A stretch of 64,000 nucleotides of DNA from Levilactobacillus fuyuanensis (GTDB lineage: Bacteria > Bacillota > Bacilli > Lactobacillales > Lactobacillaceae): positions 1 through 64,000 of the forward strand of contig NZ_RHNZ01000005.1 of NCBI RefSeq assembly GCF_003946395.1. Direction: 5' to 3'. Below are positions 50,726 through 55,560 of the stretch, piece by piece; position 1 is the stretch's first letter, and each line of letters opens with the position of its first letter. The translations under genes and the position numbers were made by a program. A model generated the notes under the pieces. That model searched no databases. It saw only the letters and a program-made list of their open reading frames with translations, and was not told the origin of the DNA.

Positions 50726-50746
50726 ATTGTGCTGATTTTTACTGCT

Positions 50747-50815
50747 TTAACGTGCAAATATTGACGTTTTTGCGACTTAACGCCTGATAAACCGAAATCA
50801 TGTTAAAGTTATAAC
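50747..50815 (+). promoter_or_regulatory. Putative activator-dependent promoter of the upstream structured RNA
   Basis: A -10-like TATAAC lies at 50810-50815 with no good -35 box. TTAACG occurs at 50747-50752 and 50777-50782, 30 bases apart; on the other strand each reads CGTTAA, the half-site core known for LytTR plantaricin regulators. The second half-site ends just before the -35 position. Suggestive only. Confidence 0.35.
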
Positions 50816-50821
50816 AGTTGG

Positions 50822-51158
50822 AAGGGGTCAGTTTTCACAGGACTGATGTTGCGAATCAACTAATTAAAGTATGCGTAGTTAAGGTCACACTTTGGGGGAG
50901 ACCTTAACCGGATTCGTACCCCGAGATTATCTAATCAAGAGGTCAGCTTGGCAGAATAGAATTGGTCGGAAACTTTAGGACGACTAGTAGCAAGAATTTC
51001 AGCGATCGGCTGAAGAGTAAGCGCACGAAACGGGTTATTTCGGAATACCTAAGGCTTTCACGACTTAATTAGAACTTGGGGGAGTGCTAATTTAGCCAGC
51101 ACCGGTAATTAAATAATCCAATTAAAGGAGAATCATCTGAGGGGATGGTTCTTTTTTT
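50822..51158 (+). ncRNA. Structured noncoding RNA upstream of the LytTR regulator
   Basis: About 337 bases without a credible reading frame, rich in hairpins and ending in a clear terminator. Stems seen: TCAGT / ACTGA at 50828; GTTAAGGTC / GACCTTAAC at 50878-50908; TTCAGC / GCTGAA near 50998-51014; AATTAG / CTAATT at 51067-51092. The 50878 and 51067 hairpins share the same loop sequence, ACTTTGGGGGAG and ACTTGGGGGAG. It does not show the conserved cores of tmRNA, RNase P RNA, SRP RNA or T-box leaders. It may be an independent RNA or a leader attenuated ahead of the regulator gene. Confidence 0.55.
51129..51158 (+). terminator. Terminator of the upstream structured RNA
   Basis: AGAATCATC and GATGGTTCT pair over nine positions (two wobbles) and TTTTTTT follows, 129 bases before the regulator start. 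Confidence 0.85.
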
Positions 51159-51286
51159 ATGGACAAAAACGATTGCAACCGTCCGGAAATCAAGGTACAT
51201 TAATGAGTGATAGGGTTACGGTATAATTGAGTTGTGACAGTAACATTTTTTTAATTACGGGAAAATTAATGAGAGGACGTGATTCG

Positions 51287-52042
51287 GTGTTAGCCGTGTA
51301 TCTTTGTGAAGATAATCAGGAACAATTGGCGCACTATACGGACGTGGTGAAGCGCTACATCATGATCAATGATTATGATATGGAAATTCGATTGGCTACG
51401 CCCAGTCCACAGGCATTATTAAAGGACTTGGCGGACAATCCACCGGAGTATGCCCTGTTCTTTCTCGACATTGAATTCCCAGCCGAGGACACGACGGGAC
51501 TAGAAACGGCCATTGCCATTCGTCGGCAACTCGGGTTTGCGGAGATCGTCTTCGTCACGACCCACTCCGAAATGGCATTACTGACCTTCGAACGGAAAGT
51601 GGAGCCGATGGACTTCGTGGTTAAGGACCTGGGCCGCGCACAGATCGATCAGAAATTACGGGAGAATGTTGACTACGGGTATCAACGCTATACCGATTAC
51701 TTAGGGAATACTGAAAATTTATTTAGCTATAATATTGGCGGTCGCACCTTCAGCCTGCCCATGGGCGACGTTTATTTTGTGGCGACCGCGGAAACGCCTC
51801 ACAAGGTTACGGTGCATGCGGCCAGTCAGCTGGTTGAGTTTCCGGGATTTTTGAAGGATATCGCCGATCAATATCCGGAACTGTATCGAACGGATAAGAG
51901 CTTTCTCGTTAATCTAGATAATGTTAGTGGCATTGATGAATCGACGCGGCGGTTAGTTTTCCCAAATGGAGACACCACCGATGTTGCTACTCGTCGTTTT
52001 CATGAGGTCAAAACCTTGGTTCAAAAACATTTAAAGTCCTAA
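51287..52042 (+). CDS. LytTR response regulator (AgrA/PlnC-like)
   Basis: A 251-residue regulator. The receiver domain (about residues 1-130) has the acidic pocket Glu8-Asp9 and the phosphoacceptor Asp61 in FFLDIEFPAED; a LytTR DNA-binding domain follows (about 148-250, RTDKSFLVNLDNVSGID near its middle). The GTG start at 51287 is chosen because AGAGGA lies nine bases upstream. A longer frame would begin inside the -10 box TATAAT (51222-51227), so it cannot be on the transcript. It heads an operon with two AgrC-like kinases. LytTR regulators of this class bind paired direct repeats and usually serve peptide quorum sensing, but no peptide gene is visible here. Confidence 0.9.
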   Translation: MLAVYLCEDNQEQLAHYTDVVKRYIMINDYDMEIRLATPSPQALLKDLADNPPEYALFFLDIEFPAEDTTGLETAIAIRRQLGFAEIVFVTTHSEMALLTFERKVEPMDFVVKDLGRAQIDQKLRENVDYGYQRYTDYLGNTENLFSYNIGGRTFSLPMGDVYFVATAETPHKVTVHAASQLVEFPGFLKDIADQYPELYRTDKSFLVNLDNVSGIDESTRRLVFPNGDTTDVATRRFHEVKTLVQKHLKS

Positions 52043-52057
52043 GAGGGTGCACAAAAA

Positions 52058-53389
52058 ATGATGGTGGACTTACTTCAAATCTTTGGTCGACATTTCTGGG
52101 TAAACCTAGCCTTGGCCGTGACCATGCAGTGGTTCATCACGCTGTGGGTCGGGGTCATTCGGCCGCAGAACTGGAAATTACCACTCAAGTGGATCGGTTG
52201 GGGTCTGATTCCAGCCTTTATCGGGGAATCGTGGGCCCTCCTGATTCCACCGATCAGTGCATTAACGTATCTGATTCATCACCGACGGAAATCAACATTG
52301 ATCTTCGTCAACGCCACCATCGTGATTTTTCTCGTGGTGGTGTTGATCAACGATGTCTGTCGTCAGGTTTTTATTGAGCTGTGGGGGTTGACCTTTACCA
52401 ACAGCGTTTCCGGGTTGACGGCCCGGTTAATTTTTCAGTTCTTTATTTACATCTTAATCTCGGTCGGCGTTTCTGGGATGCGGGTGCAACCCGGAAATTT
52501 AGACGCGTTGGAATTCAGCCGCAAGGAACAGTGGACCGTCATGGCGCTATTGGGAAGCCTCGCCGTTCTAGCGGAAATGTCTTCACTGATTATTCACCAC
52601 CTGCAGATCACGCACGCCATGTTGACCTTTTCCCTGAGTATTGAATTGGTGATGATCTTGTTGATTACGGTCAGCTTATTTGCCTTTTTCCAAAGTTTCT
52701 TTCACCGGCAGCGGGTCCGCGCCAATTATCAAGAGAGCCTAATCAGAACGCGCTATGATCGACGCATGTCCGATCAAGTGCGGGCCATTCGCCAATTTAA
52801 ACAAAACTATCAAAAGCAGATGCTGCGACTCGGCGATTATCTAGACGCTGAAGACTATGAGGGCTTGGCGATCTATTACGAAACGCTGAGTTCCCGCTGG
52901 TCGGCGACCCACCACCTGGTTGGTATTGAAGCCGATGGGCTGCAGCAGTTAAACGATCCACCGTTAAAGAGTCTCTTGTTTCAGAAATTATTGGCGGCCC
53001 AAAATAAAGATCGTGATATACGATTGGAAATTCCCACGCCGGTCAAGACGTTACCCATGAATAGCATGGAGCTTCTGCGTATCATGGGAATTCTGTTGGA
53101 CAATGCGATTGAAGCGCCGGCCGTTGGGGATAATTCCACAATCTACTGCGCCATTCTAGACTATCCCGATGCCGTCGAATTGGCCGTTGCCAATCCCGTT
53201 TCACGAGAGAATCCGCCACAGATCAATCAATTCATGCGGGCGGGTTACACCACTAAAGGCGGTAGCCATGGTCTTGGATTGAGTACGGTCCACGAAATCG
53301 TTGACCATACAGAGAACGCCGCACTACAGATTGCGATTAAGCGCGGTCGCTTGTATTTCACAGTGATTCTGACGAAGCCGGGGAGGTGA
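52058..53389 (+). CDS. AgrC-like sensor kinase A: ATP-binding domain intact, phosphoacceptor His missing
   Basis: A 443-residue HPK10-type kinase with about six transmembrane helices (residues 1-212), a dimerisation helix region (about 220-290) and a C-terminal GHKL ATPase domain. The N box GILLDNAIEA (Asn349) and the G box TTKGGSHGLGLSTV (about 398-411) are intact. The dimerisation motif that should read FxHDYxN is FKQNYQKQM, with Gln249 in place of His. It aligns with FSHDYQNML in the next gene, so the position is secure. GAGGGTG precedes the ATG; the gene starts 15 bases after the regulator. It can probably bind ATP but not autophosphorylate. Confidence 0.88.
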   Translation: MMVDLLQIFGRHFWVNLALAVTMQWFITLWVGVIRPQNWKLPLKWIGWGLIPAFIGESWALLIPPISALTYLIHHRRKSTLIFVNATIVIFLVVVLINDVCRQVFIELWGLTFTNSVSGLTARLIFQFFIYILISVGVSGMRVQPGNLDALEFSRKEQWTVMALLGSLAVLAEMSSLIIHHLQITHAMLTFSLSIELVMILLITVSLFAFFQSFFHRQRVRANYQESLIRTRYDRRMSDQVRAIRQFKQNYQKQMLRLGDYLDAEDYEGLAIYYETLSSRWSATHHLVGIEADGLQQLNDPPLKSLLFQKLLAAQNKDRDIRLEIPTPVKTLPMNSMELLRIMGILLDNAIEAPAVGDNSTIYCAILDYPDAVELAVANPVSRENPPQINQFMRAGYTTKGGSHGLGLSTVHEIVDHTENAALQIAIKRGRLYFTVILTKPGR

Positions 53390-53393
53390 GCAT

Positions 53394-54719
53394 GTGATTA
53401 CGGTAAATGCGGTTAGTTTTGGTTTGGCGGATTTTTCGTTGGTCTTTTGGTTTGTCTACTTTCAATATTACTGGTTTCCAGGCTTGCACGTGAAGAACAA
53501 GTTCTTACTTTACTGTGCGTTGGCTGGGTTGGGCTTCATGGCGCTGGATCTGTTGAATCCCTTCACGGCGACCAGTAAGCTTCTCGGCATGTTGCCAATT
53601 ATCGTGCTCCTGGTCCTAGAGGTTGGACTGCTGGCAGTTCAAAATAACTGGCAGTTCTTACCGGCCTTCATAGACGTGTCGATTCTCGCCTATCTGCTGA
53701 CGGAATTCGTGGATATGCTGGTTATTGCTGGGACGATTCGGTTGACCAGTGTCCGGTTTGCGGCTAGTGTTTGGGGAACCCTTACTGAGCTGACTATCGA
53801 TAGTGTGATTTTTGCGATGATTGCGATGGGTATCTGGTTCACGCGGGCGCCGATGGAAAATTTGATTCAGTCCATGCTGGGGCGGACTACGGAGTACCTC
53901 TTTCTCATCTTCATGGCGGTCTTGGGGCTGATATACATTCTCTTCGAATATTCACTACAGAGTTTAGCGGATTCCGATCACTACCTGATTTTTTTGGCAG
54001 GAATTTCTGGAACGCTACTCATTGGGTTAACGCTGAGCACATACATGCTGATGCAGACCCATTTACAAGAGGAACACACGCAACTTCAGACGCAACAACA
54101 GGCCTTTCGGGAGCAGTATACGACCGAACTCAATCGGCAGCTGGCCACCGTGCGTAAATTCAGTCACGACTATCAAAATATGTTGTTGGGACTGGGCGGT
54201 TACCTGGAGGATAAGGATTACGATGGTTTTCGGCAACTCTACATCGACATTCGTTCCGGCTGGGAAACTAGCAATGCGGCCGAATTGACGATTGACGACT
54301 TGTCCAACATTCCCAGTTCAAGTCTCCGTTACGGCCTCTATCACAACTATCTGATGGCGCGTGATCAGGGGGTCCAGCTCTTTGTGAAGGTGCCAGAACC
54401 GTTGACGGCTACCGTGGCAACGCTCAAGGAAATGGCTGCGGCAATCGACAAGACGTTACCACCAATTATTCCATCGATTAGCCATATCACACCATCAATG
54501 ATCACGCTGGAATTGGCGGAGACTACCCAGTCCTTGCGCCTATCACTGACTTTTCCAGTGCCACTGGACGCCAAGGTCGACGGTAGGAACCGTGTCGTCG
54601 CTGAACGGGGGATGCTAGATTTCTCCAAACTCCAGCGTTCGTTACCTCAAACAGCGACCAGTACGCTAAAAATCAAGTTGCACTGGGGTCAGCTCATTAT
54701 TGCGTTACCAAAAGGGTAG
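53394..54719 (+). CDS. AgrC-like sensor kinase B: phosphoacceptor His present, ATP-binding boxes lost
   Basis: A 441-residue membrane protein with six or seven transmembrane helices (residues 1-220), then a dimerisation helix with the HPK10 motif VRKFSHDYQNMLLGLGGYL; His258 is the likely phosphoacceptor. Where the N box should be there is AAAIDKTLPPII, and no G box is present in the degenerate C-terminal domain (about 310-441). The GTG start follows GGGAGGTGAG, four bases after the end of kinase A. It can accept phosphate but not bind ATP in the normal way. Together with kinase A it could form a complete heteromeric kinase. No terminator follows directly; RNA2 has its own promoter downstream. 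Confidence 0.85.
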   Translation: MITVNAVSFGLADFSLVFWFVYFQYYWFPGLHVKNKFLLYCALAGLGFMALDLLNPFTATSKLLGMLPIIVLLVLEVGLLAVQNNWQFLPAFIDVSILAYLLTEFVDMLVIAGTIRLTSVRFAASVWGTLTELTIDSVIFAMIAMGIWFTRAPMENLIQSMLGRTTEYLFLIFMAVLGLIYILFEYSLQSLADSDHYLIFLAGISGTLLIGLTLSTYMLMQTHLQEEHTQLQTQQQAFREQYTTELNRQLATVRKFSHDYQNMLLGLGGYLEDKDYDGFRQLYIDIRSGWETSNAAELTIDDLSNIPSSSLRYGLYHNYLMARDQGVQLFVKVPEPLTATVATLKEMAAAIDKTLPPIIPSISHITPSMITLELAETTQSLRLSLTFPVPLDAKVDGRNRVVAERGMLDFSKLQRSLPQTATSTLKIKLHWGQLIIALPKG

Positions 54720-54797: not shown

Positions 54798-54834
54798 TGA
54801 AAACGCTTGCAATTCTACTGCCATCTGATATACT
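54798..54834 (+). promoter_or_regulatory. Promoter with cre overlapping the -35 box
   Basis: TTGCAA (54807-54812) and TATACT (54829-54834), 16 bases apart. TGAAAACGCTTGCA (54798-54811) matches cre at 13 of 14 positions and covers the -35 box. It drives the noncoding region that follows. Confidence 0.75.
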
Positions 54835-54840
54835 GGGACA

Positions 54841-55107
54841 TGTAATACCAATCAATCTTTCAGAGAATTCCGAATAATCCGGCAGTTTGACGGGTTCTCG
54901 ACTTTGTGAAAGTAGCTCTTATCGTAAGGATTAGAGTTACCTTTGCAGACTGAGTTAGTGACCCAGACTGGCTCAATCAGGTTGCTCAATAAACTACATA
55001 TTGAGATTATGGCTAAGCTGAGTAAACAGCGTTTTCCTGACTACACCTCGAGGATGTTGTAAAACTCAATGATGCTGGGAACCGGAGTTGGTTACTCCGG
55101 TTTTTTT
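54841..55107 (+). ncRNA. CcpA-linked structured noncoding RNA downstream of the kinases
   Basis: About 267 bases with a promoter, no credible reading frame and a strong terminator. Hairpins: GAGAATTCC with GGGTTCTC; GTAGCTCT-ATC with GGAT-AGAGTTAC (about 54911-54940); CTCAATA with TATTGAG (about 54985-55006, perfect). It does not resemble 6S, tmRNA, SRP or RNase P cores. The cre over its promoter predicts repression by CcpA on good sugars. Its place after an agr-like operon recalls RNAIII, but sequence similarity to RNAIII was not seen. Confidence 0.65.
55080..55107 (+). terminator. Terminator of the downstream RNA
   Basis: AACCGGAGT and ACTCCGGTT form a perfect nine-base stem with a five-base loop, then TTTTTTT. 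Confidence 0.92.
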
Positions 55108-55119
55108 GTGTAGAGAGTG

Positions 55120-55304
55120 GAGCAAGGCGATTAGGTTCTGAGCATTAGGGAGCTAAGGTCTTCTGTTCGGCTTTGCCGGACAGGAGGACTTAGATTTCTA
55201 AGCGGAAGAACCTGCCTTGCGTAACTCGTTTCAAAGGTCGCATATTTCCCAAGTAATCTGGCGAGAGTGAGTTTAACTCTCTAAGCCGAAGTAGCCAGTA
55301 ACAA
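55120..55304. repeat. Structured repeat unit A
   Basis: First full copy of a roughly 180-base element. The outer stem AGGTTCT (55133-55139) pairs with AGAACCT (55207-55213), extended by CAAGG / CCTTG. Inside, GAGCATTA and TAAGCGGA flank a 19-base hairpin (55153-55193). A second hairpin follows (GAGAG / CTCTC within CTGGC / GCCAG, about 55258-55298). Coding strand unknown; no reading frame. Confidence 0.65.
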
Positions 55305-55307
55305 CTC

Positions 55308-55370
55308 ATGCCGGACAGGAGTTCCTTATTTTGCTAAGCGGAAGAATCTGGCTTGCGGAACTCGTTTCAA
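55308..55370. repeat. Structured repeat unit B, partial
   Basis: A truncated copy: GCCGGACAGGAG, then GCTAAGCGGAAGAATCTG and CTTGCGGAACTCGTTTCAA match the 3' half of the first stem domain of unit A. The 5' half is missing, so it cannot fold like A. Confidence 0.6.
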
Positions 55371-55384
55371 CTAGAGTGTGAAGG

Positions 55385-55560
55385 CGGGCGGTAGGTCCTG
55401 AGCATTAACGTAGATAAGTGCCCGCTTGGCGGAGCCGAGCCGGTGCTTATCTGGGTTAAGCGCAGGGACCTGCCCGACTGAACACGTTTCGGAGGCCGCA
55501 AGTTTTCGAACATCTTGGCGAGAGCAAATTCAATGCTCCAAACCAGAGTGATCACTAGTA
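55385..55560. repeat. Structured repeat unit C
   Basis: Second full copy, diverged in sequence but not in folding. AGGTCCT (55393-55399) pairs with AGGGACCT (55464-55471); the inner hairpin AGATAAG..CTTATCT (55412-55452) differs from the one in A, yet pairs over about 18 positions. GAGCATTA and TAAGCG are conserved. The second hairpin keeps GGCGAGAG and pairs GAGC with GCTC. Confidence 0.65.

Follow-up and report, generated by a model that had tools for sequence, protein, structure and literature searches.

Two adjacent AgrC-type sensor genes of Levilactobacillus fuyuanensis have undergone complementary losses: the first protein (kinase A) retains the ATP-binding boxes of a histidine kinase with an altered phosphoacceptor site, and the second (kinase B) retains the phosphoacceptor histidine without the ATP-binding boxes. 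Histidine kinases are usually homodimers that perform all of the steps themselves. Judging from the sequences and from the analogy with the Fas system of streptococci, we consider it likely that this locus instead encodes a split kinase of the AgrC type, in which A would phosphorylate His258 of B, and B would pass the phosphate to Asp61 of the neighbouring response regulator. Because each protein has lost the half that the other has kept, A and B very probably work only as a pair. This split-kinase reading is well supported by the comparisons described below.

The window, that is, the whole stretch of 64,000 nucleotides that was analysed, comes from a genome of 2.72 Mb. Its B protein is 94% identical to that of L. 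parabrevis and 96% identical to that of one unclassified assembly. The open reading frames of A and B have the positions and frames given by an earlier sequence-only reading of this DNA. The features of the locus, in window coordinates, are as follows.

51287..52042, + strand: LytTR response regulator, 251 amino acids, from the GTG start at 51287
51227-52042, + strand: longest open reading frame of the regulator, 271 amino acids, from an alternative start
52058..53389, + strand: kinase A (ATP-half), 443 amino acids
52796..52819, + strand: altered phosphoacceptor site of A, F-K-Q-N-Y-Q-K-Q, residues 247-254, from the alignment of 34 A proteins
53394..54719, + strand: kinase B (His-half), 441 amino acids, GTG start
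54159..54179, + strand: phosphoacceptor site of B, F-S-H258-D-Y-Q-N, residues 256-262, with His, Asp and Asn in 41 of 41 B proteins
54798..54811, + strand: cre-like site TGAAAACGCTTGCA, overlapping the -35 element of the small RNA, from the sequence and its conservation in 34 loci
54807-54812 and 54829-54834, + strand: small-RNA promoter, in the window -35 TTGCAA and -10 TATACT separated by 16 bases; a promoter is conserved at this place in 34 loci
54841..55109, + strand: putative structured small RNA, with its start placed from the promoter and its end at a terminator hairpin and T run, present in all 34 loci

The ribosome-binding site of B, GGGGAGGTGA, overlaps the 3' end of A, which suggests that translation of the two genes is coupled. 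Upstream of the operon, positions 50740-51157 hold a second conserved non-coding stretch, in which GAACTTGGGGGAGTGC is almost invariant and which has a terminator of its own. It may be another small RNA or a leader; the operon promoter (TTGCAA ... TACATT) stands after it. Downstream of the small RNA, positions 55130-55555 contain direct repeat families of 46, 34, 16 and 13 nt. A similar GAGCATTA element also occurs upstream of the regulator in L050, so these repeats may belong to a dispersed family.

Both ATP-binding motifs are present in kinase A, as an N box (LLDNAIEA) and a G box (GGSHGLGLSTV). The protein is recognised by Pfam HATPase_c_5 (E 6.5e-11), and it reaches E 5e-39 with the NCBIfam AgrC model, below the curated equivalog cut-off. 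Its phosphoacceptor region reads F247-K248-Q249-N250-Y251, with Lys253 at the Asn position, confirming the initial observation that Gln249 replaces the histidine in a protein with both boxes. Across the 34 Levilactobacillus A proteins, the N and G boxes are intact without exception. The histidine position is occupied by Gln in 24, Arg in 5 and His in 5, the last group comprising four close relatives with F-T-H-N-Y and one protein with F-K-H-T-Y. The proposed lack of a histidine in A therefore stands for the window's protein but extends to only 29 of the 34 in the genus; what is absent throughout is the Asp, replaced by Thr, Asn, Ile, Leu, Gln or Arg (Asp or Glu in 0/34), and the Asn at position 253 (0/34). 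The full His-Asp-x-x-Asn site expected of an HPK10 kinase that is active as a single protein is thus found in none of the 34. A is most likely an ATP-binding subunit that lacks a proper phosphoacceptor site, with a putative helical, membrane-type N terminus.

The five A proteins with a histidine at the site could point to a different arrangement, in which A phosphorylates itself elsewhere and drives the regulator alone, leaving B as a decoy, a phosphatase or a pure sensor; for group A Streptococcus, a role for a second FasB histidine, H284, was likewise left open by the Fas study (PMC12675982). We regard such an arrangement as very unlikely, given that the Asp and Asn of the site are gone from every A while the site of B is complete in 41/41, and that the alignment of 34 A proteins revealed no alternative conserved His column in the helical domain (the best, at position 286, has His in 16/34).

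Kinase B matched no Pfam family at E <= 1, but its residues 95-377 match the NCBIfam AgrC model (E 7.1e-14, below the curated equivalog cut-off). The retention of the His258 site and the loss of both ATP boxes, as first described for the window's protein, extend to all 41 B copies: His, Asp and Asn are always kept, and a motif check found N and G boxes in none, leaving B without the ATP boxes of an HPK10 kinase that is active as a single protein. Over an alignment of 250 residues, the two kinases share 24% identity, and Gln249 of A faces His258 of B, in agreement with the earlier statement that they align well around this site. The N terminus of B is also putatively helical and of membrane type. 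In seven loci (L057-L063, from G018, G023, G034, G017, G001, G024 and G033), a tandem pair of B genes accompanies one A. In each tandem, the two copies retain the His site without the ATP boxes. The first copy in G017 (L060) is interrupted, the only broken frame among the 41 B. Two observations lead us to think that B probably also carries sensing: it is B rather than A that has been doubled in these seven species, and sensing was assigned to FasC in the Fas study (PMC12675982).

The A-B pair is present in 34 of 35 Levilactobacillus genomes, the exception being an assembly that is 72% complete. A lies directly ahead of B in all 34 loci, with the regulator gene ahead of A in 33 (in G019, the contig ends before that point), and the ATP site and the phosphoacceptor are split over A and B in each of the 34. 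A genome search for conserved neighbouring pairs, proposed by the sequence-only reading, thus returned the same split every time, and found no homologous pair that keeps both functions in one protein, the pattern that would have indicated recent decay. The comparisons show purifying selection: whole-gene dN/dS was 0.03-0.08 in 10 of 14 comparisons, several of these ten being near dS saturation, and synonymous change was saturated in the remaining four. Isolated broken frames do occur (the first B of G017 and the regulators of G005 and G024). Even so, recent pseudogene decay, a sequencing error or a misread frame has a negligible probability and is refuted by the recurrence of the same losses in 34/34 genomes together with the low dN/dS; the original assertion that the swap is not a misreading is borne out in all 34 neighbourhoods that carry B.

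The related kinases read from other Lactobacillaceae genera and from an order-wide search are complete. At E <= 1e-30, the B profile matched 25 of 397 sampled family genomes, all of them Levilactobacillus (1 of 40 genera). Related kinases from other Lactobacillaceae genera have the His site and the ATP boxes in one protein in 35 of 35 cases read; this set includes three pairs that are identical over the aligned part and one fragment, and leaves out L100, which is cut by a contig end, and L155, where no such protein was found. An order-wide search gave complete kinases in 24 of 24 read, the best of 68 matching genomes outside Levilactobacillus, and the two sets overlap. In the window's own genome, the A profile matches only A and B, even at E <= 1; within the A-profile family, A thus lacks an alternative acceptor and B an alternative donor.

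A donor from another family could nevertheless be imagined, as the genome contains four other HATPase_c_5 matches, three of them over the cut-off. B would then be fed by an unrelated kinase, and A would be a regulatory pseudo-partner that tunes B, for example as an anti-kinase or a phosphatase. This appears improbable, since none of the four proteins matches the A profile at E <= 1, both ATP boxes of A are preserved under purifying selection in 34/34, and A stands beside B in 34/34. Moreover, in the published Fas work, complementation required the ATPase domain of FasB in the construct (PMC12675982), which argues against a merely modulatory A.

The regulator matches Pfam LytTR (E 4.5e-14); its receiver domain (Pfam E 7e-7) falls just under the cut-off, and the match to NCBIfam AgrA (E 5.8e-35) is below its own. 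Asp61, the residue named as phosphoacceptor at the outset, keeps that number when translation starts at GTG 51287, but becomes Asp81 in the longest open reading frame. The acidic pair, Asp, Thr and Lys of the receiver are retained in 33/33 regulators, a set that includes two taken as the longer piece of a broken frame. The regulator gene is split in two in G005 (L033) and frame-broken in G024 (L062), and about 2 kb separate it from A in G030 (L052). Pseudokinase sensors exist, and one could suppose that neither A nor B is active and that an A-B receptor controls the regulator without phosphate. We give this little credence: it leaves unexplained why exactly one ATP site and one phosphoacceptor have been kept, and why the receiver Asp, Thr and Lys persist in 33/33. 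Phosphotransfer from A through B to the regulator remains the reading that we favour.

We also compared predicted structures. AlphaFold2 models were built for B from a 39-row alignment (mean pLDDT 73.5) and for A from a 34-row alignment (mean pLDDT 64.4, low confidence). The best PDB matches of both models are the AgrC structures 6e52, 6e95 and 4bxi; together with the NCBIfam AgrC matches, these place A and B as relatives of AgrC/HPK10 by descent. The B model matches 4bxi with a TM of 0.73 by target length at 10% identity, so an ATPase-like fold seems to persist in the C-terminal part of B although the boxes are lost. Spo0B (1f51), the rank 31 match of the B model, is a soluble phosphotransferase with an inactive ATPase-like domain that is fed by a response regulator in a relay. 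It resembles B in that its helical His domain precedes an ATPase-like domain without kinase function, and differs in being soluble, in being fed by a response regulator and in having no ATP-half partner. With the AgrC-AgrA system of Staphylococcus and related HPK10 kinases, the locus shares its domain order and its LytTR regulator. AgrC, however, is complete in one protein and is accompanied by agrB and agrD, whereas a search of the window's genome for AgrB (PF04647) gave no match at E <= 1. On this ground, we rejected quorum sensing of the Agr type with its own peptide-making protein. No peptide gene was recognised beside the operon among open reading frames of at least 40 amino acids.

Split histidine kinases as such are already known. 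In Rhodobacter sphaeroides, neither CheA3 nor CheA4 labels itself, and together one labels the other (PMC3591291); phosphoacceptor and catalytic domains are located on two proteins, as in A and B, but the CheA proteins are chemotaxis kinases without whole domains, whereas A and B are membrane AgrC-type paralogues with lost motifs. Hik36-Hik43 of Synechocystis likewise forms a split histidine kinase that serves one response regulator, Rre6; it differs in being cyanobacterial, and its published abstract mentions no linked small RNA (PMC7656254). By their motifs, A and B belong with these systems, in that an ATP site and a phosphoacceptor are carried by two incomplete proteins.

Fas provides an AgrC-type case. 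FasB and FasC of group A Streptococcus act as a complementary pair according to genetics and two-hybrid data reported in October 2025 (PMC12675982), which overtakes the initial remark that no natural AgrC-type pair of this kind was known. The FasBCAX system of S. pyogenes has two adjacent AgrC-type sensors, FasB corresponding to A (ATPase) and H246 of FasC to His258 of B. It also has a single ComE-like regulator in which an Asp is required and, beside the operon, FasX as a separate small RNA. The gene order differs (fasB-fasC-fasA-fasX as opposed to regulator-A-B-small RNA). On sequence grounds, the Levilactobacillus locus has the same putative components: two incomplete sensors, a LytTR regulator and an adjacent, separate small RNA. 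Among our Streptococcus loci, the two proteins of L241 are 448 and 427 residues long; the longer has His241 and His284, besides His214 and His294, and the shorter has His246. As the lengths and His numbers match those of published FasB and FasC, L241 is probably the fasB/fasC locus. Its FasB-like protein has F-Q-S-D-Y, with Ser at the phosphoacceptor site and H241 and H284 elsewhere, which supports FasC as the acceptor. The FasC-like protein has kept the N box and lost the G box, whereas B has neither. No literature account of the Levilactobacillus pair was recognised among the matches listed; as far as our searches show, what is new here is that the pair is fixed across the genus, that the motifs are complementary in both groups and that there is evidence for independent origins.

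Complementary neighbouring pairs, defined as one His-less protein with N and G boxes next to a protein with the His and no G box, occur in at least 17 of 118 sampled Streptococcus genomes. They were present in 18 of 20 selected neighbourhoods, a proportion that is not a rate because the neighbourhoods were picked for two or more close matches, or in one case (G742:C15) for a strong single match. The other two hold a His-less and a complete kinase (L249), or two His-less kinases and a distant complete one (L258). Both gene orders are found among the Streptococcus pairs, and the N box is still present in the His-halves of five. Four sensor genes in a row form two complementary pairs of opposite order in L246, L247 and L251. 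The last His-half match in G738 contains stop codons. In L257 and L260, the His-half is a 301-residue frame in which no ATPase domain was matched, beside an ATP-half and further degenerate copies.

To place the two groups, which were defined by the split and not by the trees, we used 13 of 34 A, 17 of 41 B and 8 of 33 Levilactobacillus regulators; a Streptococcus regulator was readable in 9 of 17 split loci tried. In a tree of 61 regulators, the nine from Streptococcus pairs group as a single clade within the streptococcal regulators (99/94). The eight from Levilactobacillus likewise form a single clade (100/99), which lies among Lactobacillaceae regulators that belong to complete kinases. AU tests rejected a single clade for both split groups with the regulators (p 6e-45) and with the ATP-halves plus complete kinases (74 rows, p 2.5e-7). 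The His-halves gave a weaker result (p 0.028, 134 columns), and those of Streptococcus are not one clade. The Levilactobacillus pair thus looks independently evolved, and we infer at least two separate origins of the split from complete kinases. Descent from Fas is rejected by the regulator and ATP-half trees, the His-half tree being weaker on this point. In separate trees, the nearest complete kinase is L131 of G077, both with A (100/97) and with B (99/96). At L158 of G077, the complete kinase closest to A and B is a lone one next to its regulator, beside apparent fatty-acid synthesis genes; it is likely a picture of the unsplit state. In a joint tree, A and B are not sisters; the branch concerned is poorly supported (87/29) and the stem of B is long.

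Directly behind B, or behind the second B where there are two, a conserved stretch with a promoter and a terminator is present in 34/34 loci. Of 98 genomes searched, 34 have the putative small RNA, and these are all Levilactobacillus (1 of 48 genera); a search of the window at Rfam gathering scores gave no match. Its RNAalifold consensus fold reaches -31.1 kcal/mol, compared with -4.4 +/- 2.6 kcal/mol in shuffles, of which 0/100 were as low. Changes on both sides are seen in 20 of 44 base pairs (11.1 in shuffles), and 95.3% of cells are paired, compared with 30.5-48.4% in slid versions and 89.7% in column shuffles; 0/500 column shuffles reached any of five measures. The first helix of the fold, which covers the -10 element, is probably not real. 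No regulator binding site was recognised before the small RNA, where the promoter holds instead the site named cre-like for its resemblance to the cre consensus, and inspection by eye with a repeat search yielded no convincing direct repeat for the regulator before either the operon or the small RNA. Control of FasX by FasA has been published (PMC12675982). By analogy, the small RNA is a candidate output of the regulator, its likeness to FasX being positional.

In the mechanism that we propose, A would hold ATP as the catalytic subunit of a mixed membrane complex with B, most simply an A-B dimer formed through the helical domains. A would phosphorylate His258 of B, B would hand the phosphate to Asp61 of the LytTR regulator, and the regulator may control the small RNA behind B. 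A more tentative suggestion, which we hold to be somewhat less probable than its opposite, is that a complete Fas-like circuit has evolved independently in this harmless food genus, and that A is the shared catalytic partner of a single sensor/phosphotransfer subunit or, in seven species, of two. Sensing and catalysis would then be modules of the AgrC family that can be separated.

The fixation of the pair throughout the genus, together with an apparent independent second origin in streptococci, suggests that splitting of AgrC-type kinases is a repeatable evolutionary route and no mere oddity of a single pathogen. The Levilactobacillus pair would offer a non-pathogenic model for FasB/FasC, and the Ser at the FasB site predicts that FasB is not the phosphoacceptor. 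Modelling of split kinases is claimed to yield switch-like or two-state responses (PMC3591291), and such claims would become testable in a food bacterium.
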